From a virus: 21,833 nt of DNA. Below are positions 1 through 21,833 of this stretch, piece after piece. A model generated the notes under the pieces. It was given only the letters and a program-made list of their open reading frames with translations. It did no database searches and was not told where the DNA came from. The stretch covers positions 1 through 21,833 of the IMG/VR virus record IMGVR_UViG_3300043496_000080; one strand, 5' to 3'. Each line of letters opens with the position of its first letter. Position 1 is the first letter of the stretch. Made by a program: the position numbers and the translations under genes.

Positions 1-85
1 GGACCTGTCCGACGGCTCGGACCTGTCCGACGGCTCGGACCTGTCCGACGGCTCGGACCTGTCCGACGGCTCGGACCTGTCGCGG
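1..85. repeat. 18-bp iteron array, left portion
   Basis: Four identical 18-bp units GGACCTGTCCGACGGCTC lie at 1-18, 19-36, 37-54 and 55-72, followed by a partial unit GGACCTGTC at 73-81. Each unit contains GGAC-CT-GTCC, and across the unit junction CCGA-CGGC-TCGG, so every unit carries dyad symmetry. On the circle one more variant unit (21689-21706) precedes unit 1. The units lie inside the initiator gene and encode SDRSEP on the minus strand. Direct repeats of this size with internal dyads resemble the iterons of the lambda origin. Confidence 0.85.
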
Positions 86-127
86 CTGGCCGCGGCATAG
101 CCTGACGCGGGGTGTCGCTTGGTATCG
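1..127. repeat. Terminal direct repeat, left copy (circular closure)
   Basis: Bases 1-127 are identical to 21707-21833. The copy holds four perfect 18-bp units, a partial unit and about 45 bp of unique sequence. An open reading frame runs through the join. A 127-base exact overlap is what a k=127 assembly graph leaves on a circular contig, so I read this as closure of a circular or circularly permuted molecule, not a biological duplication. Confidence 0.93.
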
Positions 128-441
128 GACGCGGGATCGAATAGGAGGAGGGCGTCGGCGCTCGCCGCATACTGGCGGCAGCGATGGGAGTACCCATCGG
201 GCGCGAGAATCTTCGCGGCGACGAGACGTTGTAGACGCTCGAGCACAGTCGCGCGACTGAGTCCGGTCGCTTGCATCAACGTCTCGATCTTCGGCCGGAT
301 ATTGACGCCGGCGTGTCCGTCGCCGAACGTGAAGACAATCTGTACAAACTGCTTCAAGTCGGCGGGAAGGCGCGATTGCTGCGCCAGTTTGATAAACCGG
401 AACGGATTCCGGACGTCGGCGACGGCGGCGGGATAGCTCAT
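1..441 (-). CDS. Replication initiator-like winged-helix protein, N-terminal part (gene continues across the contig join)
   Basis: The gene starts with ATG at 441-439 and overlaps the stop of the upstream ribbon-helix-helix gene by four bases (ATGA). It stays open to base 1 and continues in the same frame at 21706, ending at 21248: 299 residues in all. Residues about 47-80 form a helix-turn-helix (IRPKIETLMQATGLSRATVL, then a second helix and a wing), like the HTH domains of phage lambda O-type initiators and HTH_36 proteins. Residues 121 onward are a Ser-Asp-Arg-Ser-Glu-Pro repeat encoded by the 18-bp direct repeats. Because the HTH precedes in-gene direct repeats, I infer an initiator that binds iterons inside its own gene. 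A transcriptional regulator is the main alternative. Linear gene callers would miss or truncate it. Confidence 0.8.
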   Translation of the reverse strand, partial: MSYPAAVADVRNPFRFIKLAQQSRLPADLKQFVQIVFTFGDGHAGVNIRPKIETLMQATGLSRATVLERLQRLVAAKILAPDGYSHRCRQYAASADALLLFDPASDTKRHPASGYAAASRDRSEPSDRSEPSDRSEPSDRSEPSDRS

Positions 442-638
442 GCGGTTTTCTTCTCCTTCCGATGGTGGGCGGCGTCGAGAATGGCGCGCTCCTCGTCTTT
501 TTTGGCGAGCCACAGGCGCACGCCATTTCTAATCTGTGCGGTGAGGGTGGTCCCGTCGCGGTCGCGTATCGCCTCGAGGCGGCGCGCGTCCTCGAGCTCG
601 AGGGCGAGGTTGAAGTGATAAGCGTTGAGCTTAGGCAT
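438..638 (-). CDS. Ribbon-helix-helix (CopG/Arc-like) DNA-binding protein, probable autorepressor
   Basis: The 66-residue protein has the ribbon-helix-helix pattern: a strand at about residues 4-13 (NAYHFNLALE), helix A with ARRLEAIRDRDG, then helix B TLTAQIRNGVRLWLAKK, and a charged tail. I chose ATG at 638 over an in-frame ATG at 698 because the later start leaves a palindrome (646-665) in the leader, where an operator would lie. The stop overlaps the initiator start by four bases, so the two are probably co-translated. Members of this family usually repress their own promoter as dimers; here that would also set initiator dosage, which is inference. An antitoxin is possible, but no toxin gene is adjacent. 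Confidence 0.78.
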   Translation of the reverse strand: MPKLNAYHFNLALELEDARRLEAIRDRDGTTLTAQIRNGVRLWLAKKDEERAILDAAHHRKEKKTA

Positions 639-645
639 AGGCCTT

Positions 646-665
646 AGTGTATTCCAAGGTACACT
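646..665. promoter_or_regulatory. Palindromic operator candidate upstream of the RHH gene
   Basis: AGTGTATTCCAAGGTACACT has perfect 6-bp arms (AGTGTA/TACACT) around an 8-bp centre. It lies 8 bp upstream of the RHH start at 638 and touches the stop codon of the preceding gene. Position and symmetry fit binding by RHH dimers. I see no convincing -35/-10 pair. Confidence 0.6.
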
Positions 666-823
666 TATTGTCGCGGGGATTCTCGCGAGAACTGGCAACC
701 GTAGGCGGCGAGGAGCTCGAGGACGCGGGCCGCGGCGACGTCCGGCGTCGGCGCCTGGCGGGCGATGTCGGCGAGGAGGCGCGCCAGGCTGAGCGACGTC
801 GGGACGATCCGCGGACCATTCAC
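665..823 (-). CDS. Hypothetical 52-residue protein
   Basis: Start GTG at 823-821 overlaps the stop of the upstream 29-codon gene in a GTGA junction, the usual coupling in this genome; an upstream in-frame start (895) would overlap that gene fully. The product begins with NGPRIVPTSL, followed by an amphipathic helical stretch (LARLLADIARQAP, then DVAAARVLELLAAYG). It has no motif I recognise. It ends at the edge of the 646-665 palindrome, the last gene before that regulatory gap. An overlapping ORF (819-631) is arginine/serine-rich and reads like a shadow frame. Confidence 0.55.
   Translation of the reverse strand: MNGPRIVPTSLSLARLLADIARQAPTPDVAAARVLELLAAYGCQFSRESPRQ
680..691. promoter_or_regulatory. 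12-bp perfect palindrome
   Basis: TTCTCGCGAGAA is a perfect dyad lying 14 bp from the 646-665 palindrome, within the 3' end of the 52-residue gene and upstream of the RHH gene. It could be a second regulator site or chance in GC-rich DNA. Confidence 0.35.
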
Positions 824-909
824 GGGCGGCGGCTCATCCAGGCGAGACACGTCAACATCACGCACGTCCAGAGCATGAGCCCGAGCACAATCCAATCAAC
901 CGCCGTCAT
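820..909 (-). CDS. 29-residue single-span membrane peptide
   Basis: ATG at 909-907 overlaps the nuclease stop (ATGA), and the stop overlaps the next GTG start (GTGA), so the mini-gene fits exactly between two coupled genes. The peptide MTAVDWIVLGLMLWTCVMLT is followed by CLAWMSRRP: one hydrophobic span (about residues 5-25) and a basic C-terminus, predicting a single transmembrane helix with the arginines in the cytoplasm. No lysis gene is otherwise recognisable, so a holin-like or single-gene lysis role is conceivable. Its place in the probable early arm argues against that. A membrane anchor for a partner is equally possible. Confidence 0.6.
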   Translation of the reverse strand: MTAVDWIVLGLMLWTCVMLTCLAWMSRRP

Positions 910-1271
910 GGCCGGCGCTCAAGGGCGGCGCGGATCGTCGCGAGGGCGGCGCCGGAGTCGAGCTCGCGCGGCGTAAAGCGGAGATAGACAAAGCCGAGCA
1001 TTTGGGCGGCGTTACTCTTTTCCATATCGCGGCGGATGCCGGTCACGCTCGAGTGACCGCCGATCGCGGTGCCAGGGTTGCGGCCGCCGCGATAGACGCC
1101 GCCGTCGCGCTCGACGATGAGGCGCGCCGCGGGCCAGCAGTAGTCGGCGCGCCACAGGCGATCGGGGCAGAACCGATACTCACGGACGGGCGCCGGGAGC
1201 TTCAGCGTCTCAAGCAAGGCGACAAACGGATCGAAGCGGAGGCGGCGAGCTCGCGGACGCGCGCGGGTCAT
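906..1271 (-). CDS. PD-(D/E)XK-like endonuclease (Vsr/DUF559-type)
   Basis: The 121-residue protein has the order typical of very-short-patch-repair-like phage nucleases: WRADYCWP with Asp43, then LIVERDGG with Glu54 and Asp56, then RRDMEKSNAAQMLGFVYLRFT, in which Glu84, Lys85 and Asn87 precede the final strand. The Asp-x10-Glu-x-Asp spacing suits a metal-dependent PD-(D/E)XK core. I took ATG at 1271 because it forms a 4-base ATGA overlap with the upstream zinc-finger gene; a longer frame to 1463 would overlap that gene and is arginine-rich. The role could be recombination-intermediate resolution or DNA processing; which one is inference. Confidence 0.7.
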   Translation of the reverse strand: MTRARPRARRLRFDPFVALLETLKLPAPVREYRFCPDRLWRADYCWPAARLIVERDGGVYRGGRNPGTAIGGHSSVTGIRRDMEKSNAAQMLGFVYLRFTPRELDSGAALATIRAALERRP

Positions 1272-1483
1272 CGGTCCTCGGCCGGGCTGACGAGGCGCGG
1301 CGCCGGCGGCGTGGCGCCGCGGGTGTCGGCATAGGTGCGGATGCAGTTCCAACAGCAGAAGTGCAAGGCGCGATCGGGATGATTGCCTTCGAGGAGCTCG
1401 AGCCAGTACGGCGGGACATCGACGGCCGCGGCCGTCTCGAGCTGCTCGCGACACTGTTCGCAATAGAAGATGGAGTGGAGCAC
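1268..1483 (-). CDS. Small CxxC...CCxxC zinc-finger protein
   Basis: The 71-residue protein carries CEQC at residues 8-11 and CCWNC at 43-47, a two-knuckle zinc site spanning about 36 residues, followed by a proline-rich tail. The start is GTG at 1483, with GGAGG (minus strand, 1496-1492) eight bases upstream. It is the first gene of the minus arm, immediately downstream of the 1535-1550 palindrome, and its stop overlaps the nuclease start. First-in-operon position and a zinc fold suggest a regulator or host-interaction protein, but I recognise no family. Confidence 0.68.
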   Translation of the reverse strand: MLHSIFYCEQCREQLETAAAVDVPPYWLELLEGNHPDRALHFCCWNCIRTYADTRGATPPAPRLVSPAEDR

Positions 1484-1651
1484 AGTATCGGCCTCCGCCG
1501 CGGATCTAACACAGCATCCGCGGGCCGTTTACTATTGGACCAAAGTCCAAGACGGGCGCGGGCCGCCGGCGCGCAATCTGTAGTGTCAAGGGGTGCGGCG
1601 CCGGCGGATACCGTCGAGATTCTCCAGTGTGCGCGTGTGCGGTTCGGTCGT
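1484..1651. promoter_or_regulatory. Divergent intergenic region between the two arms
   Basis: This 168-bp stretch separates the minus-arm start (GTG 1483) from the plus-arm HNH gene (ATG 1652), so both promoters should lie here. It contains the 1535-1550 inverted repeat and a locally AT-richer patch at 1528-1550. I could not find a convincing sigma70 hexamer pair on either strand. Confidence 0.55.
1535..1550. promoter_or_regulatory. Inverted repeat, candidate divergent-promoter operator
   Basis: TTGGACCAAAGTCCAA has perfect 6-bp arms TTGGAC/GTCCAA around a 4-base centre. It is the clearest symmetric element between the two divergent arms, about 52 bp upstream of the minus-arm start and 102 bp upstream of the HNH start. 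TTGGAC also resembles a -35 box read in either direction. Confidence 0.5.
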
Positions 1652-2053
1652 ATGCCTGAGAACGTCGGGCCTCTGCAATATTGCCTGGCGCCGAACTGTC
1701 GCGCGCTCGTCCGCCGCGGCTACTGCCGGGCGCATCGGCCGGCGCCGACACTGCCACGGGCGAATGCTGACGTCCGCCGGTGGTACATGGTGGAGCGGTG
1801 GCGGCATCCGGTCGCCGGCTACCGGGCGAAGTGTCTCGCGCGGGATCCGTTCTGCGTCGTGTGCCAGGCCGCCGGCCTCCTCGAGGTCGCGACGGACGTC
1901 GACCACATCGAACCCCATCACGGCGATCCGGCGCGGTTCTGGTGTCTCGAGAACCTACAGTCTCTCTGCCATCGGTGCCACTCGCGCAAAACCGCGGCGG
2001 AGGGGCGCGCAACGGCCGAGTCCCGGCGGATTAGGTCAAGTCCCGGAACCTAG
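1652..2053 (+). CDS. HNH endonuclease (terminase-associated)
   Basis: From ATG 1652 the protein is 133 residues. An N-terminal zinc knuckle (YCLAPNC, then GYCRAH) precedes the HNH fold: CVVC near residue 69, VDHIEPHH with the catalytic Asp-His, CLENLQSLCHRCHSRKT with the structural Asn and final His. HNH proteins of this size beside terminase genes are known to be needed for DNA cleavage in several cos-packaging phages, and this one lies just upstream of the terminase genes. It is the first gene of the plus arm. No good ribosome site precedes ATG 1652, so the exact start is uncertain; the frame is open further upstream but there it is arginine-rich and unlike the family. Confidence 0.88.
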   Translation: MPENVGPLQYCLAPNCRALVRRGYCRAHRPAPTLPRANADVRRWYMVERWRHPVAGYRAKCLARDPFCVVCQAAGLLEVATDVDHIEPHHGDPARFWCLENLQSLCHRCHSRKTAAEGRATAESRRIRSSPGT

Positions 2054-2150
2054 CATTAATAGGGGGGTGGTAAAGTGTTGATTCTAAAGGACTTGCCAAA
2101 CCGCCTCTGGTCCTCCGCGCGCGCGCCGGGCGGTTAAAGGATTTTCAAAG

Positions 2151-2170
2151 GGTTTTCTGGGGTTTTCTGT
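2151..2170. repeat. 10-bp tandem T-tract repeat (bent-DNA candidate)
   Basis: GGTTTTCTGG is followed directly by GGTTTTCTGT. Together with GGATTTTC at 2139 and AGTTTTGC at 2173 the T4 tracts recur at helical spacing (11, 10, 12 bp), the pattern expected of intrinsically curved DNA. Confidence 0.6.
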
Positions 2171-2177
2171 CAAGTTT

Positions 2178-2212
2178 TGCGGCCGTTTGCGGACATCTGC
2201 GGCCGTCTGCGG
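2178..2212. repeat. 10-bp phased TGCGG array
   Basis: TGCGG begins at 2178, 2188, 2198 and 2208. The 15-mers at 2178-2192 and 2198-2212 (TGCGGCCGT[T/C]TGCGG) differ at one base. Spacing of exactly 10 bp puts the motifs near one helix face, suiting a multimeric ring such as a small terminase. Confidence 0.65.
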
Positions 2213-2314
2213 GTCGATCAGCTGTAGATGGCCGGTCGGTAGGATTTTGGTAGGACGTCGGGATCAGCTGCGGAACGGGTCCGGCCGTCTTGACGCCGGG
2301 GAGAGGATAGGGTG

Positions 2315-2476
2315 ATGTCCTGCGCCGATTGTGGTGGCTCGACTAATCTCGCGAGCGGTGACGGCGTCTTTCGGTGTTGGCAGTGTCACTGCCGATACCT
2401 CGCGACGCTCGCCGCGCGCCGCGCGCCGTCCGCGGCGTTTATCTATCGGGCGCCGCCGTGGCGCCAGGCCGGCTAA
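2315..2476 (+). CDS. 53-residue zinc-ribbon mini-protein
   Basis: ATG 2315 follows a purine-rich GGGGAGAGGATAGGG ribosome site. The product begins MSCADCGGSTNLASGDGVFR and continues with CWQCHCRYLA, giving CxxC...CxxC over about 20 residues, a compact zinc ribbon like the one in many DNA-binding domains. The tail is basic and aromatic. It lies directly upstream of the small terminase and downstream of the phased repeat region, so a DNA-packaging or late-regulatory accessory role is a reasonable guess. No family is recognised. Confidence 0.65.
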   Translation: MSCADCGGSTNLASGDGVFRCWQCHCRYLATLAARRAPSAAFIYRAPPWRQAG

Positions 2477-2530
2477 TGGCCGGGCGACGAACGATTGCCA
2501 GCGTGGTTTGGCAACCGGGCGGGGGGAGCG

Positions 2531-3040
2531 ATGCCGCGCGGCGGGCATAGTCGCGTCGGGCCGCCGGCCTCGGACGCCGCGACGCGCGCCGTCCGGGGCG
2601 CCGAGACACGCCGCCGACATCGCATCAAGGGCGACGCCGGCGCCGCGCGCGACGCCTCGCACGATTGCGATCCGCCAAAAGGCCTCGATCGTCTCGAGCG
2701 GAACTACTGGAATTACTACGCCGCGCGAATGCCCTATCTCCCGGCCTCCGCGCGCGACGCGCTGAGCAAGTACTGTACGGCGCTCGCGACGATCGCCCGA
2801 TTGAAGGGGCTGATCGCCTCGCGCAAACCGGCGGACGTCCTCCTCCGCGACGCGCGCCGGAAGGATTTACGCCAGTGGATCCTGGGGAGTCGGTTGTACG
2901 AGACGGATCTCATCCTGACGCCGGCGAGCTCGATCCGGGCGCCGCGCGGGGCCGTCGCGCCGGCGTCGCCGACGGCGCCGGTCGATCCGTTCGCGGCGTT
3001 TATCGATCTGGAGGACGGCGACGAGGAAACAATCCAATGA
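2531..3040 (+). CDS. terS: Terminase small subunit (P27-like)
   Basis: The 169-residue protein opens with MPRGGHSRVG, the glycine-rich basic start seen in P27-family small terminases. A helical core follows (YWNYYAARMPYLPASARDAL, then KYCTALATIARLKGLIASRK), in which the conserved aspect is a compact helical bundle after the basic arm. The C-terminus is acidic (FIDLEDGDEETIQ). ATG 2531 was chosen for the GGGGGGAG directly upstream (2521-2528) and the family-like N-terminus; GTG/ATG codons further upstream lack this. The stop overlaps the next gene (ATGA). It should recognise the packaging site and load the large terminase. The call rests on position plus N-terminal similarity. Confidence 0.78.
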   Translation: MPRGGHSRVGPPASDAATRAVRGAETRRRHRIKGDAGAARDASHDCDPPKGLDRLERNYWNYYAARMPYLPASARDALSKYCTALATIARLKGLIASRKPADVLLRDARRKDLRQWILGSRLYETDLILTPASSIRAPRGAVAPASPTAPVDPFAAFIDLEDGDEETIQ

Positions 3041-3324
3041 TTGACGCTCGATCGGGGATCGATCCGCTCGCGAGGTGTCCGCGGTGTCGGCACGTCCTCA
3101 ACGCCGCGACATCCGCTACGGATGACGCGCGGCCGGAGGCCGGCGACGTCTCAATCTGTATCGGGTGCGCGCTCTATTTGATTTTCGTCGACGGCGGCGC
3201 CGGGCTCACTGTCCGCGCGGGCACGGCGGACGATGTCCGCGCGCTCTCCCTCGAGCAACGGGAAATCCTGAATGACGCCGCGCGGATGATCACGGGAGGC
3301 CGCGACGCGGAAACAATCCAATAG
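3037..3324 (+). CDS. 95-residue zinc-ribbon protein between the terminase genes
   Basis: ATG 3037 overlaps the terS stop. CPRC lies at residues 13-16 and CIGC near 42-45, a zinc-ribbon pair, followed by a strand-rich segment (ALYLIFVDGGAGLTVRAG) and a helix (SLEQREILNDAARMITGG). Small zinc-ribbon proteins of this shape occur next to terminase genes in other phages, but I know of no assigned function. Its last codons ETIQ-stop are encoded by nearly the same 18 bases (3305-3322) that end terS (3021-3038). The 3' end overlaps the probable true start of the large terminase. Confidence 0.7.
   Translation: MIDARSGIDPLARCPRCRHVLNAATSATDDARPEAGDVSICIGCALYLIFVDGGAGLTVRAGTADDVRALSLEQREILNDAARMITGGRDAETIQ
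3294..3307 (+). promoter_or_regulatory. Shine-Dalgarno before a non-canonical (ACG) start of terL
   Basis: GGGAGG at 3294-3299 is five bases upstream of ACG at 3305-3307. No ATG, GTG or TTG occurs in the terL frame between the in-frame TGA at 3287-3289 and GTG 3368, yet the intervening codons read like a conserved TerL N-terminus. ACG initiation or a sequence error would explain both facts. Confidence 0.4.
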
Positions 3325-3367
3325 CGGCGCCGGCGCGGACAATCCGGTCGACGCCTACGCGCGCGCG

Positions 3368-5095
3368 GTGGTCGCCGGCGAGCTCCCGGCCGGCAAGTAC
3401 CACGTCCTCGCCTGTCGCCGGCATTTGACCGATCGCGCGCGCGAGGGCGATCCGTCGTTCCCGTACCGTTTTGTCTGGGAGGCCGTCGACGGCCGCGGCC
3501 GGGCGCTCCACTCGGCGCAACGCTTCCTGGAGTTCGCGCGCCAGTGCCGGCACTACAAGGGCAAACGGTGGGCGGGCAAGCGATTTGATCCGTCGCCGTC
3601 GCAAGTGTTCCGGCTCGGGTCGCTCTTTGGTTGGCGGCACGTCGTCACCGGGCGCCGTCGGTTTACCACGTCCTACAACGAGCTCCCGCGGAAGCAAGGC
3701 AAAAGCTTTGAGGGCGCGATCGTCCTCGTCTATGTCACGTTTTTCGAAGGGGAGCCAGGGGCGGAGGGCTACGTCATTGCGACCAAGCGGAAGCAAGCCA
3801 ATATCGTCTTTGGCGACGCGCGCCGGCTGATTCTCCGCTCCCGGCTGACGTCGCCGACGCTGCAGGCGATCACGGTCGGCGCGCATAGTCTGTTCCTCGA
3901 GCGGACGGCGTCGAAAGTCGAGCCGCTCGGCGCGGATAGTGATTCAACGGACGGCCTCAATCCGTCGTGCACGATCGCCGACGAGCTCCACGCCTACAAG
4001 TATCGCGATCTCCTCGATGTGATGGAATCCGGCACGGGCGCGCGCGCCGATCCGATGATGTTTCAAATTACAACGGCGGGCACGGATCCGGATTCGCCGT
4101 GCGGGCAACAGCACGCCTACGCGTGCCAGATTCTCGAGGGTGTCCTCGATGACGCCGCGACGCGATCGTTCTTTGCGTTTATCGCCCATGCGGATCCGAC
4201 GGATGACTGGCAATCGGAGACGGCCTGGCGCAAGGCGAATCCGCACTATGGGATCTCCGTCAATCCAGAGGAGATCCAGAAGCTCGCGTTAAAAGCGGCG
4301 CAGATTCCGTCCGCCGCGGCGGAGTTCCAACAGAAGATCCTGAACTGGTGGGTCGCGACGCTGCAACCGTGCCTATCAATCAACGGCTGGCAACGGGGAC
4401 AGTCGGCCTGGACGCTCGACGAGCTCGAGCATCAACCGTGCTATGTCGGGATCGATCTCGCGTCGCTCCTCGACCTGTGCGCGCTCGCGCTCGTCTTTCC
4501 GCCGACGGCGGCGCGGCCGGCCTGGCGCGTCGCGCTCGAGCTCCTGACGCCGGCGGCGACGATTGCCGATCGCGCGCATCGGGACCGGGCGCCGTATCGG
4601 GAGTGGGTCGACGCCGGCTGGATTCGCACGACGCCTGGCGAACGGATCGATCATCAGGTCTTACGGCCGATCCTCCGCGCGGCGCGCGAGCGGTTCGACA
4701 TTCAGACTATCGGGTTTGATCCGTGGCATGCGGACACGTTGATCCATCAACTGACGGCGGAGGACGGATTCCCAGAAACACAAGTCCTGGCGATACCGCA
4801 AACCTTCGCGGGCATGTCGCGGGCCTGTCTGCGGATGCAGGCGGATATTGTCGCCGGCCTCGTCGACGCCAGGCGCGATCCGGTGATGGCGTGGGCGGTG
4901 TCGAATGTCGTCCCGAATATCGACGGCAAAGACAATCTCATGTTTGCCAAGGGCAAGTCCCGCGGCCGGATCGATCCGGTGATTGCGGCGACAATAGGCA
5001 TCGCGCTCTACTTGAAACATCCGCCGGCGCCTAAGCCGAAATATCAAATCTATGTGTTCGGGGGTACGCCTGATGGCTCGTCCGCGTCTCTATGA
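3368..5095 (+). CDS. terL: Terminase large subunit (Terminase_1 family; ATPase and nuclease)
   Basis: This is the DNA-packaging motor. Numbered from GTG 3368 (575 residues), Walker A is LPRKQGKS (106-113) and Walker B is IADE (203-206, in CTIADELHAY). The RNase H-like nuclease aspartates are in GIDLAS (Asp363), GFDPWHAD (Asp451) and RIDPVIA (Asp536). The lysine-rich Walker A and the IADELHA motif are characteristic of the HK97-type Terminase_1 family. The frame continues upstream of GTG 3368 with NPVDAYARAVVAGELPAGK, matching the usual TerL N-terminus, so the true start is probably near 3305 and not 3368. The stop lies 23 bases inside the following RHH gene. Confidence 0.95.
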   Translation: MVAGELPAGKYHVLACRRHLTDRAREGDPSFPYRFVWEAVDGRGRALHSAQRFLEFARQCRHYKGKRWAGKRFDPSPSQVFRLGSLFGWRHVVTGRRRFTTSYNELPRKQGKSFEGAIVLVYVTFFEGEPGAEGYVIATKRKQANIVFGDARRLILRSRLTSPTLQAITVGAHSLFLERTASKVEPLGADSDSTDGLNPSCTIADELHAYKYRDLLDVMESGTGARADPMMFQITTAGTDPDSPCGQQHAYACQILEGVLDDAATRSFFAFIAHADPTDDWQSETAWRKANPHYGISVNPEEIQKLALKAAQIPSAAAEFQQKILNWWVATLQPCLSINGWQRGQSAWTLDELEHQPCYVGIDLASLLDLCALALVFPPTAARPAWRVALELLTPAATIADRAHRDRAPYREWVDAGWIRTTPGERIDHQVLRPILRAARERFDIQTIGFDPWHADTLIHQLTAEDGFPETQVLAIPQTFAGMSRACLRMQADIVAGLVDARRDPVMAWAVSNVVPNIDGKDNLMFAKGKSRGRIDPVIAATIGIALYLKHPPAPKPKYQIYVFGGTPDGSSASL

Positions 5096-5276
5096 TGTTG
5101 CCGCGTCGCAGGGGCTATCCGTCCGCCTGACGCCGGCGCAACGCCAGGAGCTCGAGGCCGTCGCGCGCGCGGAGCGGTCGCCGGTATCGCGCGTCGTGCG
5201 CGAGGCGGTGAACTGCTACGTCGCCGACTCGCGCGAGCTGACGATCTTTCCGGTCCGCCGGCGCCGGCGATGCTAA
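5073..5276 (+). CDS. Ribbon-helix-helix DNA-binding protein, late arm
   Basis: From ATG 5073 the protein is 67 residues, with a clear RHH pattern: GLSVRLTP (strand) AQRQELEAVARAERSP (helix A and turn) VSRVVREAVNCYVAD (helix B), and a basic C-terminus ending in five consecutive arginines plus Cys. It overlaps terL by 23 bases and the next gene by 7, so it is embedded in the virion arm. It differs in sequence from the early RHH protein at 438-638. It might regulate late genes or bind packaged DNA; neither is shown. Confidence 0.75.
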   Translation: MARPRLYDVAASQGLSVRLTPAQRQELEAVARAERSPVSRVVREAVNCYVADSRELTIFPVRRRRRC

Positions 5277-5821
5277 CGACGCTCGAGCTCGCGGCGGCGC
5301 TCGTTCGGACGGTCCGCCGACATCCGGAGCTCTCCGACGTCCAGTGTGCGGCGGAGGTGTTCGAGGTGCTCCATATCTCGTCCGCCTGGTTTTGTCGGTG
5401 TAGTGAAGTAGACGGGATCTCCGTCGAAACACCATTCGAACAAGAGGCGCCGGCGCGCGCCGTCGCCGGGCCGGCGCCGCTGGCGGCGATCGTCGCGCGG
5501 ATAGTGGCGCTCGAGGCGCGGCTCGAGGAGCTCCGGGCGCTCAAATCAGCGGCGGAACCACTACCGTCGCTCGCCAAACGCCTCAAGGAGATGGGAGTAC
5601 CAGAACAAGAGCGGGGTGTAGTTACTCGCCAGCTCCTCGATCGCGCGGCGGCGACGGGTACGGCGCGGCGTCCGCCGCGGCGCGCGACGCCGTCCGCCGG
5701 TGAGACGGTCGATCTCACGCCGGGGTGTGATTGCGATCAAGCGGGGACGCCGGACGCCGCCGTCCATGCGTCGGACTGTACGTGGATTGCGCGCCGGCTC
5801 GAAGTGCAGAACGGCGGCTAG
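5270..5821 (+). CDS. Hypothetical 183-residue protein
   Basis: ATG 5270 overlaps the previous stop. The N-terminal 50 residues contain three cysteines (Cys27, then CRC near 42-44). A central helical, coiled-coil-like segment (about 70-100, ARIVALEARLEELRALKSAA) leads into a basic linker (TARRPPRRATP) and a C-terminal CDCDQAG...HASDC motif that could bind metal. It lies between terminase and capsid genes, where portal usually sits, but has no portal features. A head-assembly or packaging accessory is possible; I do not recognise a family. Confidence 0.65.
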   Translation: MLTTLELAAALVRTVRRHPELSDVQCAAEVFEVLHISSAWFCRCSEVDGISVETPFEQEAPARAVAGPAPLAAIVARIVALEARLEELRALKSAAEPLPSLAKRLKEMGVPEQERGVVTRQLLDRAAATGTARRPPRRATPSAGETVDLTPGCDCDQAGTPDAAVHASDCTWIARRLEVQNGG

Positions 5822-5927
5822 AAATGACGACCGATAACGATCCGGCGTTTGAAGCGGCAAGCCCGGACATCGGCCGGAGTTCCGTCCGACATAACGCCGG
5901 CGCCGGCCGTACACTCCCGGTCCAATC

Positions 5928-7838: not shown

Positions 7839-7847
7839 AGCAACGGC

Positions 7848-9227
7848 ATGGCGACGGGTGCGATCGTCCGCCGGTCGGGGCTCCGCGGCGCGCTCCAGGG
7901 CGTGTGGCAGAGTCTGACGGCGGCGATCCGCTCGCCGCGGGCCGCGGGCTACGGCGGGCCGGTGGTCCGGGAACCGTATCCAGGGGCCTGGCAGAAAAAC
8001 CAAGAGATCACGGCGCCGTCGACGCTCGCGTACTTCGCGGTCTTTGCGTGCGCGACGCTGATCGCCGCCGACATCGCGAAACTCGGGCTCCGGCTCGTGC
8101 AAGTCGACGACGACGGCGTCTGGACGCCGGCGAGCTCGCCGGCCTTCTCGCCGGTCCTCCGCAAGCCGAACCGGTACCAGAATCCGATCACGTTCCTGGC
8201 GCAATGGATTATGTCGAAGCTCACCGCGGGCAACGCCTACGTCCTCAAGCAACGGGACGAGCGGGGCGTCGTGGTCGCGCTCTACGTCCTCGAGCCTGAC
8301 GGGGTGACGCCGCTCGTCGCGCCGGACGGCTCCGTCTACTACCAACTCAAGCCAAACGAGCTCGCCGGCCTGGCGCCGGATGCGCCGTTTTTTCAAGACG
8401 GCGGCGTCGCGCCGGCGCGCGAGATTATTCACGATCGGATGGTGACGCTGTTTCATCCGCTGATCGGCGTCTCGCCGATCTTCGCGTGCGGGCTGGCGGC
8501 GCTGCAGGGGCTCAAGATTCAAGAGAGCTCGACGACGTTTTTCGCCAACGGCTCGACGCCGGGCGGGATCCTGACGTCGCCGGGCGAGATTTCACAAGAG
8601 CAAGCGGACAGGGTCAAAGAGTACTGGGAGGCTAATTTTTCCGGCGTCAATGCCGGCAAGGTCGCCGTCATCGGCGACGGGCTCAAGTACGAGCAAACGG
8701 ATCCGGTATCGGCCGTCGACGCACAGCTGATCGAACAGCTCAAATGGACGTCCGAAACGGTGTGCGCGTGCTTCCACGTCCCGCCGTACATGATCGGGGT
8801 CGGCGGCTATCCGCCGTACAACAACGGCGAGCCGCTCTTGCAGCTCTACTACTCGCAGTGTCTCCAGCATTTGATCGTGTCCCTCGAGGCCTGTCTCGAC
8901 GAGGGGCTCGAGCTCCCGGCGCCGTACGGGACGGAGCTCGACATTGACGATCTGATCTGGATGGATACCAACAGCAAAACGACGGCGTCCGGCGCCGCGA
9001 TCGGCTCGGGGTCGCTCTCGCCGAATGAGGCGCGATTGAAGTACTTCGGGAAGGGCCGCGTCGCCGGCGGGGATTCGCCGTTCCTGCAGCAGCAGTACTA
9101 CAGCCTGGCGGCGCTCGCCGCGCGCGACGCGCTCGGGCCGCCGCCGGGGACGCCGGATCCGCTCGTCGCGTTTGCGGCGGCGCTCGAGCGGGCGACGGCG
9201 CCCACGCTCGCGACGATGGAGGGCTGA
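7848..9227 (+). CDS. Portal protein (HK97-type)
   Basis: The 459-residue product matches HK97-type portals in length and landmarks: TLAYFAVFACATLIAADIAK in the N-terminal wing, the PVLRKPNRYQNPITFLAQWI segment, KLTAGNAYVL, LIGVSPIFACGLAALQ, STPGGILTSPGEIS, and the late VCACFHVPPYMIG...PYNNGE stretch. It forms the dodecameric vertex ring through which terminase pumps DNA. ATG 7848 follows the protease-capsid stop by ten bases. Here portal comes after the capsid gene, whereas HK97-like phages usually place portal directly after the large terminase and before protease and capsid. Confidence 0.95.
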   Translation: MATGAIVRRSGLRGALQGVWQSLTAAIRSPRAAGYGGPVVREPYPGAWQKNQEITAPSTLAYFAVFACATLIAADIAKLGLRLVQVDDDGVWTPASSPAFSPVLRKPNRYQNPITFLAQWIMSKLTAGNAYVLKQRDERGVVVALYVLEPDGVTPLVAPDGSVYYQLKPNELAGLAPDAPFFQDGGVAPAREIIHDRMVTLFHPLIGVSPIFACGLAALQGLKIQESSTTFFANGSTPGGILTSPGEISQEQADRVKEYWEANFSGVNAGKVAVIGDGLKYEQTDPVSAVDAQLIEQLKWTSETVCACFHVPPYMIGVGGYPPYNNGEPLLQLYYSQCLQHLIVSLEACLDEGLELPAPYGTELDIDDLIWMDTNSKTTASGAAIGSGSLSPNEARLKYFGKGRVAGGDSPFLQQQYYSLAALAARDALGPPPGTPDPLVAFAAALERATAPTLATMEG

Positions 9228-9230
9228 CGG

Positions 9231-14325: not shown

Positions 14326-14328
14326 GGC

Positions 14329-16896: not shown

Positions 16897-17453
16897 TGGC
16901 TCTCAATCGCGCGCCGTTTAACGCGCTCGTCGACGATGACGGGAGCGGCAACGTCGGAACGCCGTGGGAGAAGGCGCGCATCGCCGGCGTCATTCTCGAT
17001 CCGGTCGACGTCGAGCTCGCGCCGGATTCCTGTAGTGTCACGGCGATCACGGTGCAAACGTCCTGCAATCCAAGCCAGTGGAACGCGCTCAAGTACGACA
17101 CGATCAATTGGCAAACGGCGGCGGGGATGTTCGTCCCGCCCAACGACTACGTCACAATTCCAAAATTGGGCTACTACCTGATTCTCGGGTCGGTGACGTT
17201 TCCGCAGGGCGACGGGATTCGAGGATTGGCGATCTATACCAACGGCATCGCGGCGGCCGGCTTGCCAGGGCAACAGCAGCTCCGCGTCGCGACGACGGCT
17301 ACCTACACCGTGATCAACGTCTCGGCGCTCGTCTACCTCGGCGAAAACTCGTACGTACAGCTCGCCGCCTTCCAAAACACGGGCGCGCCGATTTTGGTCG
17401 GCGGACTGCATCCGCAAACGACCAATCACATGCAAGTGATCCGGGTGAAATAG
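16896..17453 (+). CDS. C1q-like jelly-roll virion protein
   Basis: The 185-residue protein has a polar N-terminal part (residues 1-85) and a C-terminal beta domain with the C1q/TNF-like layout: GYYLILGSVTFPQGDG, then RGLAIYTNGIAAAG, TTATYTVINVSALVYLGENS, and YVQLAAFQNTGAPIL, ending HMQVIRVK. Such trimeric jelly rolls form tips of phage fibres and bind host glycans or proteins. ATG 16896 overlaps the hub stop and has GGAAGG upstream. The call is from strand pattern and position. Confidence 0.7.
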   Translation: MALNRAPFNALVDDDGSGNVGTPWEKARIAGVILDPVDVELAPDSCSVTAITVQTSCNPSQWNALKYDTINWQTAAGMFVPPNDYVTIPKLGYYLILGSVTFPQGDGIRGLAIYTNGIAAAGLPGQQQLRVATTATYTVINVSALVYLGENSYVQLAAFQNTGAPILVGGLHPQTTNHMQVIRVK

Positions 17454-17467
17454 GACAGGGGGCAGAC

Positions 17468-17740
17468 ATGGCAATTGTGACGGCAGGGCGGCCGGTGACG
17501 GTCGACGACGTGAAAATGACGGCCGGCCGGATTGCGTCGATGATTCGCGACGCGGTTCAGGATGGCAACGATTTTCGGATTCAGCTCGAGTCGTGGCCGG
17601 ATCCGGATCTCATCGAGCTCGGCTTGTCGCAAGCGGAGATCAACGCGATCAAGGGGTTTTACGTCGGCGATCTGCCGCAACTCTCGGCGCTCCTGCAGGC
17701 CTCGACGTGGATCAAGCAACTGTTGGGGACGGGCGTCTAA
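17468..17740 (+). CDS. Small conserved tail-module protein (90 residues)
   Basis: ATG 17468 follows ACAGGGGGCAG. The protein is helical: DDVKMTAGRIASMIRDAVQD, then WPDPDLIELGLSQAEINAIK and LPQLSALLQASTWIKQLLG. A similar small protein with an LxxxGLxQxxxxxIKxxxxD pattern follows C1q-like or fibre genes in other phages, where its function is unknown. It may be a virion or fibre assembly helper. Confidence 0.65.
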   Translation: MAIVTAGRPVTVDDVKMTAGRIASMIRDAVQDGNDFRIQLESWPDPDLIELGLSQAEINAIKGFYVGDLPQLSALLQASTWIKQLLGTGV

Positions 17741-17763
17741 CGCGACGCCGAAAGGACTACATC

Positions 17764-18309
17764 ATGCTCTCCGCTCGCGCGCTCGTCGCCGTGCTCGCGC
17801 TCGCGCTCGTTGCGTGCGATCTCAATATCACGACGGCGCCGGGCGACATCACGAACACGAACACGAACACCAACACGAACAATCTCGACATTCACGATCT
17901 CGTCAACTTCGCGCCGGCGGCGAATCCGGCGACGCCGGTCCCGGCGCCAGGCGGCGGCACGGAGACGCCGCTCCCCTTACCGGCCGGCGCGCAAGCGACG
18001 GCGAACGCCTACGCCGCCGGGCATACGACGCAGCTCGCGCGGAGCTGCCAGGAGATTTACGGCGAGACGGCCTGGCAGTACCTCGACGGCCTCGTCGCGG
18101 CGCTCCGGCGCGACGATCCGCGGTGGGGCTACATGGTCAAACCGACGGACGGCCAAATCTCGCGCGACGTCATTGCCTACCGGGCGACGTCGGACAATAG
18201 CGGGGCGTGGGGCGTCGACGTGATTGTCGATCGGTGCGGGAGTAATACCGCGGCGTGGAATGTCCTGGGGTTCGATCCGGCGGCGCAATGGGCCGGGACG
18301 CGGTTCTAG
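17764..18309 (+). CDS. Phage-encoded lipoprotein
   Basis: From ATG 17764 (AAAGGA upstream) the 181-residue protein begins with a lipoprotein signal peptide, MLSARALVAVLALALVAC, with lipobox Leu-Val-Ala-Cys at residues 15-18. Asp19 is the +2 residue that in Enterobacteria keeps lipoproteins in the inner membrane. A low-complexity Asn-Thr repeat (about 31-39) and a Pro-rich linker (about 50-75) lead to a globular domain with two cysteines (RSCQEIYGETAWQYLDGLVA; VDVIVDRCGSNTAAWNV). It lies among adhesin genes. Superinfection exclusion or a spanin-like lysis role are possible; no family is recognised. Confidence 0.78.
   Translation: MLSARALVAVLALALVACDLNITTAPGDITNTNTNTNTNNLDIHDLVNFAPAANPATPVPAPGGGTETPLPLPAGAQATANAYAAGHTTQLARSCQEIYGETAWQYLDGLVAALRRDDPRWGYMVKPTDGQISRDVIAYRATSDNSGAWGVDVIVDRCGSNTAAWNVLGFDPAAQWAGTRF
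17851..17880 (+). repeat. 6-bp tandem repeat (ACGAAC) in the lipoprotein gene
   Basis: Five near-perfect ACGAAC units, one altered to ACCAAC, encode the alternating Thr-Asn run just after the mature N-terminus. Unit number could vary in frame by slippage, changing tether length without disrupting the protein. Confidence 0.75.
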
Positions 18310-18413
18310 GGCGTCTCGCGGCGCTCCGGATCCGGAGTCATCGGCGCGCCGGCCGGGAGTATGGGACCGGGCGCGACGGCGGAAGGGCCGCGCGCACGGC
18401 CGGCGGCGCGCCG

Positions 18414-18542
18414 ATGTACGAGCGGATCCTCGCGCGGTATCGCGGGCGGGGCGGCGTGCTCGGGTGGCTCGTGCTCGAGCTCGACGTCCGATGGTTACGG
18501 CGGGAGATGCGGCGCGCGCGCCGGCGGCGCGGCCGGGACTAA
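18414..18542 (+). CDS. 42-residue basic protein with a short hydrophobic segment
   Basis: From ATG 18414 the product is MYERILARYRGRGGVLGWLV followed by LELDVRWLRREMRRARRRRGRD. Residues about 13-22 are hydrophobic and the C-terminal half is strongly basic and helical. The same frame opens earlier, at ATG 18288, but that extension overlaps the lipoprotein gene and is Gly/Arg-rich, like a shadow frame. A hydrophobic patch plus a polybasic tail recalls small lysis peptides, and it sits late in the virion arm where lysis genes often lie; this is speculation. Confidence 0.5.
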   Translation: MYERILARYRGRGGVLGWLVLELDVRWLRREMRRARRRRGRD

Positions 18543-18563
18543 TTATCAAGAGGGGCGGACATT

Positions 18564-19820
18564 ATGGCGACGAAAACGGCGCGATCGTGGGATGCGATCG
18601 TGTGCGACTACGAACGGCTCGCCGACGAGCTGACAGTACTCACGGTCGAGGCGCGCGCCGCGGTCGACGCCGGCGGCGAGACGCCGCCGCCGGTGGAACC
18701 TCCGCCGTCCGGCGACGTGATCCTCGTGACGGAGAATCTCCCTGGCGCGATTGCCGCGGCGCCGGCCGGGGCGGTGCTCGACCTGGGCGGGCGGGCGTTT
18801 ACTGGCGCGATCACGATCGACAAGCCGCTGACGGTCCAGAACGGCGAGATTCTCGCCGGGGCCAACGTGAACGATCTCGTCGCGCTCTCGGGCGACGGGA
18901 TCACGCTGCGCGATCTCGTGCTCCGCGGCGACGGTACGACCAAGCGCGGCATTAGCAACCAGGCGGCCGGGACGGTGCTCGAGCGGGTCGAGGTCCTGAA
19001 CATCTGCCGCGAAGGACAAGAGACACAGGCGCTCGCTATGTGGGACAGTCCAGGGCCGCTGACGGCGACGGATTGTCACTTCGAGGGCGGCGCGCTCTGT
19101 TTTCTCGCCGGCGGCTCGACGCCGACGGTCCCGAACACGATCGCGACGGGACTCACGTTCCGGCGGTGCACGTTTACACGGCCGCTCGAGTGGCGCGACA
19201 AAGGGTACGCGTGCAAAAACTCCTTTGAGCTCAAGTGTGCGCGCGACGTGCTCGTCGAGGACTGCGAGATTGCGAACGTCTGGGCACAGGGCCAGTCGGG
19301 CTACGCGATCCAGTTGACGCCGTCGCAGTACGGCGGGTCGCCGGAGACGACGGTCGAGAATGTCACGTTCCGGAATTGCCGAATCCACGACGCCGGCGGC
19401 GGCGTCAACGCGCTCGGCTACTCGCAACATGACGAGCCCGATCGGGTGACGCAGCGCGGCGGACAGTATCGGTTCGAGGGCTGTACGTTCGACATCAACA
19501 AATCCTACGAGGGGCAAGCGGCCGTCGTGACGTGCGCGCATAGTCCGAACGGCGTCGCGCTCGTGGACTGCGACGTGACGAGCAATGGTGATGCCTTTCT
19601 GCGGTTCTCGGATAAAGAGCCGGTCGACGGGTTCAGCTATACCGGCGGCCGGGTGAATACGCCGGGGACGTATGGCGTCTTTTCGCCGCTCGGGAATCGT
19701 GGCGCGGCGTGGCAATCCATCGCGCCGGGCGGCGTGATCTCGGGTGTCACGTTCGTCGGCGCGCATAGCACGTTCAAAAACAATTTCCCCGATAACACGT
19801 ACGAGGCGGCGCCGGCGTGA
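18564..19820 (+). CDS. Right-handed beta-helix protein, tailspike-like
   Basis: The 418-residue protein has a short helical N-terminus (1-37), a proline-rich hinge (GGETPPPVEPPPSGD, about 37-51) and then a parallel beta-helix of pectate-lyase type. Coil after coil shows the short-strand, Asn/Asp-Gly-turn rhythm (GAITIDKPLTVQNGEILAGA; GISNQAAGTVLERVEVLNIC; ENVTFRNCRIHDAGGGVNAL; YRFEGCTFDINKS; VALVDCDVTSNGDAFLRFSD). This architecture is typical of tailspikes that bind or cleave surface polysaccharide. I cannot assign catalytic residues. ATG 18564 follows GAGGGGCGG. Confidence 0.8.
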   Translation: MATKTARSWDAIVCDYERLADELTVLTVEARAAVDAGGETPPPVEPPPSGDVILVTENLPGAIAAAPAGAVLDLGGRAFTGAITIDKPLTVQNGEILAGANVNDLVALSGDGITLRDLVLRGDGTTKRGISNQAAGTVLERVEVLNICREGQETQALAMWDSPGPLTATDCHFEGGALCFLAGGSTPTVPNTIATGLTFRRCTFTRPLEWRDKGYACKNSFELKCARDVLVEDCEIANVWAQGQSGYAIQLTPSQYGGSPETTVENVTFRNCRIHDAGGGVNALGYSQHDEPDRVTQRGGQYRFEGCTFDINKSYEGQAAVVTCAHSPNGVALVDCDVTSNGDAFLRFSDKEPVDGFSYTGGRVNTPGTYGVFSPLGNRGAAWQSIAPGGVISGVTFVGAHSTFKNNFPDNTYEAAPA

Positions 19821-20002
19821 CGACGGAGGCGCGCGCGGAGCTCGCGGCGCATCCGTGGCGGCGTTTTCTCCTGGCGCGCAAAGACGCGATCGACTGGCTC
19901 GCGGCATCCGGCGAGCCGGACGATCGGATCGCGGTCGCGCTGTCGCTCGCCGAGTATCAAGTGACGCGGATCCGGCGGACGGCGCGCGAGGCGATAGAGT
20001 GA
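19817..20002 (+). CDS. Hypothetical 61-residue protein
   Basis: GTG 19817 overlaps the tailspike stop (GTGA). The helical protein reads AELAAHPWRRFLLARKDAID, then WLAASGEPDDRIAVALSLAE and YQVTRIRRTAREAIE. The second half resembles a helix-turn-helix (PDDRIAVALSLAEYQVTRIRR), as found in small sigma-like or Trp-repressor-like proteins, so a DNA-binding role is possible. It is coupled to the next gene by another GTGA overlap. Confidence 0.6.
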   Translation: MTTEARAELAAHPWRRFLLARKDAIDWLAASGEPDDRIAVALSLAEYQVTRIRRTAREAIE

Positions 20003-20217
20003 CGCCGCTCCGGCTCGCGCATCTCGATCGGCTCGTGCTCGGCGCGCGGATCGTGGGCGTCGAAGTCGATACGGGGACGCCGGCGCTCGAGCTGCTCCTC
20101 GAGAACGGCTGTAGTCTGCGGATTCGCCTGGCGGACCGGGGCCCGGAGGCCGTCGCGATCGAAGTGCCGGACGGCGTCGGGCTCCTCTCGGTGCCGACGT
20201 CCTCGACGATTCAGTAA
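19999..20217 (+). CDS. Hypothetical 72-residue protein, last gene of the plus arm
   Basis: GTG 19999 overlaps the previous stop. The product is mainly beta: LDRLVLGARIVGVEVDTGTP, ALELLLENGCSLRIRLADRG and AVAIEVPDGVGLLSVPTSST, which could be a small barrel or a two-sheet sandwich. No motif is recognised. A hairpin-forming GC-rich stretch follows immediately. Confidence 0.6.
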   Translation: MTPLRLAHLDRLVLGARIVGVEVDTGTPALELLLENGCSLRIRLADRGPEAVAIEVPDGVGLLSVPTSSTIQ

Positions 20218-20218
20218 C

Positions 20219-20297
20219 GGAGCGGGCGCCGGCACGGGGACGGGCGCGCGGCCGGTGCTCCCCATGCTGCGCGCCGTCCGGTGCACGGCGCCGCTCC
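20219..20297. terminator. Long-range inverted repeat between convergent arms
   Basis: GGAGCGGGCGCCG (20219-20231) pairs with CGGCGCCGCTCC (20286-20297) except for one bulged base. The loop contains further GC-rich complementarity. It sits in the 89-bp gap where plus and minus arms meet, the place for a bidirectional transcription barrier. No U-tract follows on either side, so a simple intrinsic terminator is not shown. Confidence 0.4.
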
Positions 20298-20306
20298 GCT
20301 CCCATC

Positions 20307-20879
20307 CTAATCCCGGCGCGGCCGTTCGAACCCCTCATATCGCCGGCTCCGCGTGGTGCGGCGGCGTCCCCACGGGGCCCACGATTCGACGCTGCGCGCG
20401 CGGAGCTCGACGTCCACGGCGAGGAGATGGTCGCCGGACGCCGGCGGCGCCGGGCGCTCGACGACCGGGACGGGCAACCGTGGGGCGAGCTCGGCGGCGA
20501 GATGGGCGGCGGCGACGGCCTCCTCGACGGCGACGTGCTCGCGGACGGCCGCCGCGCGCCGGCGCCGGGCTCGCGCGTCGGCGGCGGCGCGCCGGCGGGC
20601 CTCCTCGGCGGCGCGGGTGTCCTGGCGCCGGCGGGTCTGCTCGGCGTCCCTGGCGGCGCGGGCCTGGGCGTCGAGCTCGGCGCGGGCGGCGTCTCGCGCG
20701 CGGATGATCTGCTCGCGGTCCTCGAGGAGGGCGTATAGCTCGGGCGCCAGGGCATCAAAGACGGCGCGCTCGTCCGGGCTGAGCTCGCGGTCCTCGGCGA
20801 GGGCGGCATCTCGGAGGCGATTGAGTCGCTCGAGGCGGGCGCGGATCTTCTCGTCGACGGTTCTCCCGACAATCCACAT
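20307..20879 (-). CDS. Coiled-coil protein with a capsid delta-domain-like N-terminus
   Basis: ATG 20879 has GGAGG (20890-20886) six bases upstream. The 190-residue protein reads DEKIRARLERLNRLRDAALA, then EDRELSPDERAVFDALAPEL and YALLEDREQIIRARDAARAE, continuing as a long Ala/Arg/Glu coil to about residue 125 and then a Pro-containing, basic tail. The N-terminal 60 residues resemble the scaffolding (delta) region of HK97-type capsid proteins, with its signature LxxEExxxFDxLxxE pattern. Yet it lies on the opposite arm from the capsid genes. It could be an independent scaffold or a DNA-binding or replication accessory. Confidence 0.7.
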   Translation of the reverse strand: MWIVGRTVDEKIRARLERLNRLRDAALAEDRELSPDERAVFDALAPELYALLEDREQIIRARDAARAELDAQARAARDAEQTRRRQDTRAAEEARRRAAADARARRRRAAAVREHVAVEEAVAAAHLAAELAPRLPVPVVERPAPPASGDHLLAVDVELRARSVESWAPWGRRRTTRSRRYEGFERPRRD

Positions 20880-20930
20880 CTCCGGCCTCCGCTCTTGCCA
20901 GGCCTCACGATCGCGCGGTGGCGCGGGGGT

Positions 20931-20960
20931 GTCTCCGTCCGGTGAGACGCTCGTGTCTCA
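20931..20960 (-). promoter_or_regulatory. Two mutually exclusive hairpins in the leader of the coiled-coil gene
   Basis: GTCTC (20931-20935) can pair with GAGAC (20944-20948), or that same GAGAC can pair with GTCTC (20955-20959; extended arms TGAGAC/GTCTCA at 20943-20960). The element lies in the 145-bp gap between 21024 and 20880, which holds no gene I can support. Competing pairings upstream of a GGAGG site recall an attenuator or translational switch, but the stems are short. Confidence 0.35.
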
Positions 20961-21011
20961 GAGCCTTACGTATGGTCGAGCTTCCCCGATACCGTCGGCG
21001 AGGGCGCCGGT

Positions 21012-21028
21012 GTGACAGGACAGGTCAC
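21012..21028. promoter_or_regulatory. Palindrome containing an iteron-like core
   Basis: GTGACAGGACAGGTCAC has 5-bp arms GTGAC/GTCAC. Its centre, GGACAGGTC (21018-21026), matches nine of ten bases of the iteron core GGACAGGTCC read on the minus strand. It lies at the stop of the zinc-ribbon gene, about 560 bp from the degenerate repeats. It may be an isolated initiator-binding site or chance. Confidence 0.35.
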
Positions 21029-21240
21029 GAGCTCGACGGGCTCGGCCTCCGCGGCCGGGTGATCCACGGTTTTTTTATCGTCCGGCCTCGTGGACGCAAG
21101 TACGCCGTTTCGCTGATCGGCGCTCCACAGCGGTCGCGGTGAGACGCGATCACGGAATTGTCGACGGTTGCCCATCCGTGCCATTGGGCGCCGCATTGGC
21201 AGTACACACTAACGCGCGGGTGCGGTTGTTTGCCTTTCAT
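21025..21240 (-). CDS. 71-residue zinc-ribbon protein downstream of the initiator
   Basis: ATG 21240 is seven bases after the initiator stop. The protein reads MKGKQPHPRVSVYCQCGAQW, then ASHRDRCG: CxC at residues 14-16, with His34 and Cys38, a likely zinc site. The C-terminus is basic (RPRGRTIKKPWITRPRRP). A longer frame upstream overlaps the initiator and is Ser/Arg-rich, so I used the later start. Its location directly after the initiator suggests a partner in replication or its control, though unlike lambda P it is far too small to be a helicase loader. Confidence 0.65.
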   Translation of the reverse strand: MKGKQPHPRVSVYCQCGAQWHGWATVDNSVIASHRDRCGAPISETAYLRPRGRTIKKPWITRPRRPSPSSS

Positions 21241-21247
21241 GGGCGTC

Positions 21248-21833
21248 TCAGTGGAACGAGGCGCGAAGGACCTCAACGATGACGCGCTCGCGCGTCGCGG
21301 CGTCGATCTCGATGTGTCCCGCGCGACAGTGGTCGTCAAAGTGTCGGCCGATCGTCTCGATGGTTGGGAGCGAGATTCCGTCGGTATAGCGGGCCTGACG
21401 GACGGCGCTCCGGGCGAGCTTTTGGATCTTCACGGCGAGACGTTCGCGCTCGGCCTCCTCGCGAAGTTTACCGATCGGATGAATAGGCGCCGGCGGCGTC
21501 GAGTTTTCCACAGGCGCCGAATCGAGCGCCGGCGTTTGTTCACGTACGTTCAGAACGTTCTTTATGATCTGGTCCGAGCCTCCAGACCTGTCCGTCCGAG
21601 CCTTCGGACCTGTCCGTCCGAGCCTCCGGACTAGTCGATCCGAGCCTCCGGACCTGTCAAATATCTGACCGTCCGAGCCTCCAGACATGTACCTGTCCGA
21701 CGGCTCGGACCTGTCCGACGGCTCGGACCTGTCCGACGGCTCGGACCTGTCCGACGGCTCGGACCTGTCCGACGGCTCGGACCTGTCGCGGCTGGCCGCG
21801 GCATAGCCTGACGCGGGGTGTCGCTTGGTATCG
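21248..21833 (-). CDS. Replication initiator-like winged-helix protein, C-terminal part (continues from 1-441)
   Basis: This is the downstream segment of the gene that starts at 441. The frame enters from the contig join with SDRSEP repeats and passes through a Gly/Ser/Asp/Arg linker encoded by degenerate 22-bp repeats (SGGSDGQIFDRSGGSDRLVR). It ends in a folded C-terminal domain: PIGKLREEAERERLAVKIQK, then LPTIETIGRHFDDHCRAGHI and RERVIVEVLRASFH, stopping at 21248. In lambda O the C-terminal domain contacts the helicase loader; here it might recruit host replication proteins, which is inference. A start at 21688 would give only 146 residues and lose the HTH, and I reject it as the main start. 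Confidence 0.8.
   Translation of the reverse strand, partial: DTKRHPASGYAAASRDRSEPSDRSEPSDRSEPSDRSEPSDRSEPSDRYMSGGSDGQIFDRSGGSDRLVRRLGRTGPKARTDRSGGSDQIIKNVLNVREQTPALDSAPVENSTPPAPIHPIGKLREEAERERLAVKIQKLARSAVRQARYTDGISLPTIETIGRHFDDHCRAGHIEIDAATRERVIVEVLRASFH
21552..21570. other. AT-richer patch beside the repeats; possible unwinding element
   Basis: AGAACGTTCTTTATGATCT is one of few AT-richer stretches in the window. It begins with the perfect palindrome AGAACGTTCT (21552-21561) and abuts the repeat field at 21571. In lambda the unwinding region also lies immediately beyond the iterons in the direction of O gene transcription, as here on the minus strand. Functional assignment is inference. 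Confidence 0.45.
21571..21688. repeat. Degenerate 22-bp repeat family next to the iterons
   Basis: Units begin at 21585, 21607 and 21629 (22 bp each), with a 33-bp expanded copy at 21651 that contains an AT-rich CAAATATCTGA insertion and a half copy before 21585. The consensus is GACCTGTCCG followed by TCCGAGCCTCCG. The first half is shared with the 18-bp iteron; the second half differs. The copies diverge while the adjacent 18-bp copies are identical, suggesting older and newer expansions of one motif. Confidence 0.75.
21689..21791. repeat. 18-bp iteron array, right portion
   Basis: A variant unit at 21689-21706 (GT in place of the first GG) is followed by four perfect units at 21707-21778 and a partial unit. 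Units from 21707 are the same molecules as those at 1-72 because of the terminal overlap. The real circle therefore has four perfect units, one variant and one partial. Confidence 0.85.
21707..21833. repeat. Terminal direct repeat, right copy
   Basis: Identical to 1-127. Removing it gives a 21,706-bp circle. All features within it are duplicates of those at 1-127. Confidence 0.93.

Follow-up and report, generated by a model that had tools for sequence, protein, structure and literature searches.

The stretch of viral DNA considered here, a record of 21,833 bp that we call the window, raises the question of where replication begins in a genome whose scanned ORFs include no polymerase, helicase or helicase loader (some small ORFs lay outside that scan). 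We consider it very probable that the answer lies in a single gene, rep, which would encode a phage replication initiator and carry the origin inside its own coding sequence, functioning in the manner of lambda O and SPP1 gp38. A preliminary description of this DNA had taken the gene to be the only replication gene of the phage apart from small accessories, a claim with which the scan of ORFs is compatible but which it does not prove.

Closing the Circle

The first 127 bp of the record are identical to its last 127 bp, forming a perfect direct repeat, and closing the molecule on this terminal repeat alone, the basis of the join, gives a circle of 21,706 bp in which 21707–21833 duplicates 1–127. 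The overlap comprises about 80 bp of tandem repeat and about 47 bp of unique sequence, and no sibling contig spanning the join was present among the records searched. As had been claimed from the first inspection, a 299-residue gene crosses the contig ends: the joined minus-strand ORF runs unbroken from 441 to 1 and then from 21706 to 21248, a length of 900 nt that encodes 299 amino acids and a stop. Its features, and those around it, are as follows.

1–441, minus strand: 5′ part of rep in the joined ORF, with the start codon at 441–439, the winged helix and the first part of the 18-bp array
21248–21706, minus strand: 3′ part of rep beyond the join, with the stop codon at 21250–21248, open in frame through the 127-bp terminal repeat
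163–363, minus strand: predicted winged helix-turn-helix, residues 27–93 (AlphaFold2 model; HMM E = 1.5e-6)
217–255, minus strand: predicted recognition helix, residues 63–75, with R, A, L and E at family positions 50, 51, 54 and 55
21257–21475, minus strand: predicted helical C-terminal domain of three helices (single-sequence AlphaFold2 model)
438–639, minus strand: small ORF resembling a ribbon-helix-helix (RHH) protein by eye, with an ATGA overlap with the rep start
21696–21789 (the same DNA as 1–82 on the circle): 18-bp iteron-like array of four perfect dyads CGGACCTGTCCG and one variant
about 21570–21696: 22-bp degenerate repeat field, with GGAC/GTCC half-sites as in the 18-bp array, in all three frames
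21534–21574: AT-rich patch, a candidate DNA unwinding element, the AT maximum of rep and directly 3′ of the repeats
21504–21512, plus strand: DnaA box TTTTCCACA, the window's sole match to the consensus TTWTNCACA, some 20 bp past the AT patch

The remaining genes have a siphovirus-like layout that includes an HNH endonuclease, a large terminase, a fused head protease/major head protein, a portal, head-tail connectors, a major tail protein and a tail-fibre-like protein, and the searches for RNA families and tRNAs found none. Among the ORFs scanned there was no match to a P-type loader downstream of rep, where the small ORFs have no family match; the one directly downstream (21025–21240, minus strand) has a Cys-X-Cys ... 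His ... Cys pattern and is possibly zinc-binding. Elsewhere, an ORF at 906–1463 (minus strand) matches phrog_503, a family of unknown function (E = 8.9e-22), and weakly DUF559, so that it is possibly a nuclease, and the ORF at 17758–18306 (plus strand), with no PHROG match, contains a TN repeat and starts like a lipoprotein signal peptide (LVACDLN). The switch in GC skew that had been anticipated near 1/21700 is absent, the detrended skew having its minimum at 9145 and its maximum at 2560; with no switch at the rep site, GC skew was rejected as evidence for the origin.

The Rep Protein

The N-terminal helix-turn-helix of the preliminary description was recovered in several ways. The AlphaFold2 model of the N-domain has the secondary structure of a winged helix (helices at 27–39, 52–59 and 63–75, strands at 79–85 and 88–93; mean pLDDT 75.5). 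Pfam searches gave weak winged-helix matches, GntR/AsnC/IclR-type ones among them (HTH_36, E = 0.013; GntR, E = 0.0098), and of 38,880 PHROG families the three that match best all consist of replication initiators, each of them matched weakly. When an HMM of related initiators, built with the window left out, was run against all ORFs of the window, Rep was found at E = 1.5e-6 and the next, unrelated ORF at 0.7. Both the HMM and the PHROG matches fall on a winged helix of generic kind. With the family profile, regulators of the MarR/GntR type score about as many bits as Rep does, so the HMM match alone is no proof of membership. The solved structures that match the N-domain are generic winged helices only, the closest being regulators, with TubR among the top fold matches. 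Searches with full-length and N-terminal Rep turned up no homologue in viral contigs and annotated phages, and no close whole-protein relative; among 43 loci carrying terminase relatives (26–74% identity), none had a related Rep in the stretch covered.

The C-terminal domain is modelled as a helical block (pLDDT about 80–93 over model residues 41–108), and it presumably contacts the host replication machinery. It has no PHROG or Pfam match, and a fold search returned no match at E ≤ 0.001; the top fold matches were weak holin-like helices, which were not trusted. The RHH-like ORF at 438–639 has no Pfam family match and one weak PHROG match of unknown function, and it is possibly a control gene in a rep operon. 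To the eye, its ATGA overlap with rep recalls the cop-rep operons of plasmids.

Repeats inside the Coding Sequence

Along rep the order is winged helix, 18-bp array, 22-bp field, AT patch and helical C-terminus. The four perfect and one variant 18-bp repeats, at 21706–21789 and again at 1–82 through the terminal repeat, are present as first described, and so is the 22-bp field that follows them. Copies of the 18-bp unit preserve the frame and are translated as SDRSEP, and units of the 22-bp field begin in frames 0, 0, 1, 2 and 0; because these units shift frame while the motif persists, it is the DNA that is conserved and not the peptide, which points to selection acting on the repeat DNA, as judged from sequence. 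The 21,706-bp circle has five GGACNNGTCC sites, every one of them within the 22-bp field, and 2000 codon shuffles of rep gave a mean of 0.07 such sites and at most 2. The AT-richer patch noted earlier is 40 bp long and 60% AT; nothing else in rep is as AT-rich, and genome-wide it ranks at the 99.8th percentile. The DnaA box, found in a post hoc search for a consensus expected 0.07 times by chance in the window, is not conserved in relatives.

Related Initiators Share the Arrangement

A search of viral contigs by DNA alone, with a pattern of two spaced dyads and a half-site, returned 18 loci, 10 of which lie inside initiator genes, as defined by a significant initiator PHROG match or by homology to such an ORF (L068 to L058, by inspection); a further six belong to a single unrelated family. 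In the six viral contigs L053, L056, L060, L061, L062 and L065, a cluster of CGGAC/GTCCG repeats immediately precedes a conserved ORF (MATKKTTRPRPKPSK...), one not recognised as an initiator. Relatives were then picked by similarity of the helix-turn-helix protein in order to lessen the bias of motif selection (alignment A2 was too diverse for the locus search), giving a set of 44 non-redundant genes in which L055, L057, L058, L067, L069 and the window were already known by motif, a few more came up a second time through their protein, and lambda served as an added control. Repeat sites were sorted into class A (CGGAC/GTCCG) and class B (CCCCCG-type), and a significant in-gene cluster of one or the other was present in 34 of the 44, mostly in all three frames. 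In 28 of 35 genes (the window and lambda included), where 1.7 were expected, the AT maximum was directly 3′ of the repeats, with its start between −5 and +25 bp relative to the end of the array; the relatives are not independent samples. The positive control, lambda O, scored positive for both iterons and AT maximum. In Pseudomonas phage MD8, a gene for a P-like helicase loader comes after that of the class B relative (gp56).

Recognition Helix and Motif Class

Among 32 non-redundant initiators (24 of class A and eight of class B), the four alignment columns that say most about motif class all fall in the recognition helix, at positions 50, 51, 54 and 55. Proteins of class A have R at 50, T or S at 51, a hydrophobic residue at 54 and a mostly acidic one at 55; class B proteins have E, Q, K, A or D at 50, R at 51, Q, H or R at 54 and other residues at 55. 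The window, whose repeats are of class A, has R, A, L and E at these positions and is thus class-A-like at 50, 54 and 55, with an A at 51 that is not T/S but is small as in class A, so that by sequence its helix largely fits class A. L119, a later match, pairs a class B helix (SERAVQRA) with class B repeats. The initiator family with this match between helix and repeats takes in L073–L116 and the window at 217–255; two of the loci surveyed, L071 and L108, have class-A-like backbones yet class B helices and repeats.

In a tree of the winged helix drawn without the recognition helix, which is too short for firm clades, the rejection of a single class B clade is weak (p-AU 0.045), and support exists for just one independent pair; class B is probably not one clade, the tree being weak. 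More distant initiators (L121, L122, L124, L127 and L129) carry other in-gene repeats, such as CACATTGCCC in L121 and CCCAAAAACGG in L122, which suggests that further motif classes exist. No prior report of a link between motif and helix was found in the literature searched, in a search short on subscription journals, and this covariation might be the part that a specialist finds new.

The DNA role that the preliminary description gave to the repeats gains support from four sides: units that shift frame, a DNA-motif search that led to initiator genes, repeats with an AT patch in initiators chosen for their protein, and the covariation of motif class with helix. What that description observed is borne out, and so, for the most part, is its interpretation.

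A Model and Its Alternatives

The sequences directly show the gene, its repeats and AT patch, the order in which these stand, their recurrence in related initiators and the tie between motif and recognition helix; binding, melting, helicase recruitment and origin activity are what we infer from this arrangement. The N-terminal winged helix of Rep would bind the GGACNNGTCC dyads of the 18-bp and 22-bp arrays, and several bound copies would strain the DNA such that the adjoining AT-rich 40 bp opens. The C-terminal helical domain would recruit the host helicase, either directly or via a host loader or DnaA, and theta replication would follow. The translated repeats would meanwhile serve as a flexible linker joining the two domains of the protein.

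Several other explanations can be envisioned, the first of which is that Rep is a winged-helix transcription regulator, a repressor for which the repeats are autoregulatory operators, with the origin elsewhere. The generic N-domain, its weak GntR/AsnC/IclR-type matches and the regulators that are its closest solved folds all suit this explanation. It is nevertheless unlikely, since the best PHROG matches are all initiators, the DNA motif also occurs in the initiator genes of other phages, a helicase loader follows the class B relative, members of the family repeatedly have an AT patch directly 3′ of their repeats, and no other replication gene was seen among the ORFs scanned.

A second explanation concerns the join, which could be an assembly artefact in which the ends overlap through repeats only and the 299-aa gene is unreal. 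A k-mer of 127 is common in assemblers, the overlap has exactly this length, some 80 bp of it is tandem repeat, and no other record crosses the join. Against this, about 47 bp of the overlap is unique, the 18-bp array falls short of the overlap in length (about 92 bp), and joining leaves an open frame with the domain order expected of an initiator; an artefact is very improbable.

We give hardly any weight to a third explanation, in which the repeats are a centromere-like site and Rep is a partition adaptor (TubR/ParR-like) of a plasmid-maintained phage: TubR structures rank near the top of the fold matches to the N-domain and centromeres typically have iterated sites, but there is no TubZ, ParM or ParA among the ORFs scanned, and the AT patch and the initiator relatives do not fit. 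Equally little weight goes to a protein-level or neutral explanation of the repeats, with SDRSEP as a flexible linker expanded by slippage and no role for the DNA: the perfect 18-bp copies, a multiple of three in length with the frame kept, do look like recent slippage, but the 22-bp units change frame yet keep the DNA motif and motif class tracks the recognition helix in relatives.

Returning to an initiator with an embedded origin, a wider claim can be made only tentatively, at somewhat short of even chances: that there is a broad class of initiators whose four recognition-helix residues decide between at least two iteron motifs for retention in the gene, protein and origin switching specificity together, and that the window belongs to it as a remote case, equipped with a novel C-terminal recruitment domain, in a 21.7-kb phage with no other phage-encoded replication protein. 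An origin nested in its initiator gene can move and change together with it, which may explain cassette-wise swaps of phage replication modules. If the helix residues predict the iteron, the origins of many uncultured phages would become readable from sequence alone. With the window, the embedded-origin plan would reach a compact phage whose helix is divergent and whose C-terminal domain has no match.

Comparison with Known Systems

Lambda offers one analogy: its O protein binds mid-gene iterons and opens an adjoining 40-bp AT-rich segment (PMC5043065, PMC7466680). The lambda O gene is also 900 nt long, with annotated iterons at nt 349–433 and its AT maximum at nt 435, and the lambda O order that had been proposed for rep bears out in this respect: both genes encode 299-aa initiators with dyad-containing iterons mid-gene and an AT-rich segment directly 3′. 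The window differs in having another iteron, an unrelated C-terminus and no P-type loader among the ORFs scanned. Of the two profiles against which the N-domain was to be compared, HTH_36 was matched below its cut-off and lambda O was not matched: the search with PF04492 (Phage_rep_O) gave nothing at E ≤ 10 (lambda O itself scores 5.7e-36), and a comparison of alignment A4 (window first) to lambda O in hhalign gave a probability of 0.3%. Membership of the lambda O family was rejected on the missing Pfam match and a C-terminus that matches nothing. The label "lambda O-like" holds for architecture but fails for family.

The HTH_36-type O-like initiators (phrog_270, 391, 678 and 1032; e.g., MD8 gp56) share an N-terminal winged helix followed by GGAC/GTCC or CCCCCG-type repeats with the AT maximum 3′ of them, and many members have the class A motif of the window. 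The helix of the window is distant from theirs (HMM E = 1.5e-6; Pfam HTH_36 below cut-off), their C-terminus is not common to it, and it is set apart by repeats of two periods, 18 and 22 bp, with four of the copies perfect.

In SPP1, gp38 binds repeats within gene 38 that adjoin an unwinding element (PMC6316719). By gene layout, gp38/oriL resembles the window in having direct repeats and an AT-rich unwinding element inside the initiator's own gene (PMC6316719); it differs in that SPP1 has a Gram-positive host and encodes its own helicase loader and helicase (gp39 and gp40).

The RepA_N initiators of plasmids and satellites offer a further parallel, with an N-terminal DNA-binding domain, a variable, host-specific C-terminus and semi-palindromic iterons, which in the satellite lie in a non-coding region (PMC7145576); RepA_N is absent among the Pfam matches of the window. 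Overall, the embedded-origin architecture is already known, and the window is a new, divergent member.
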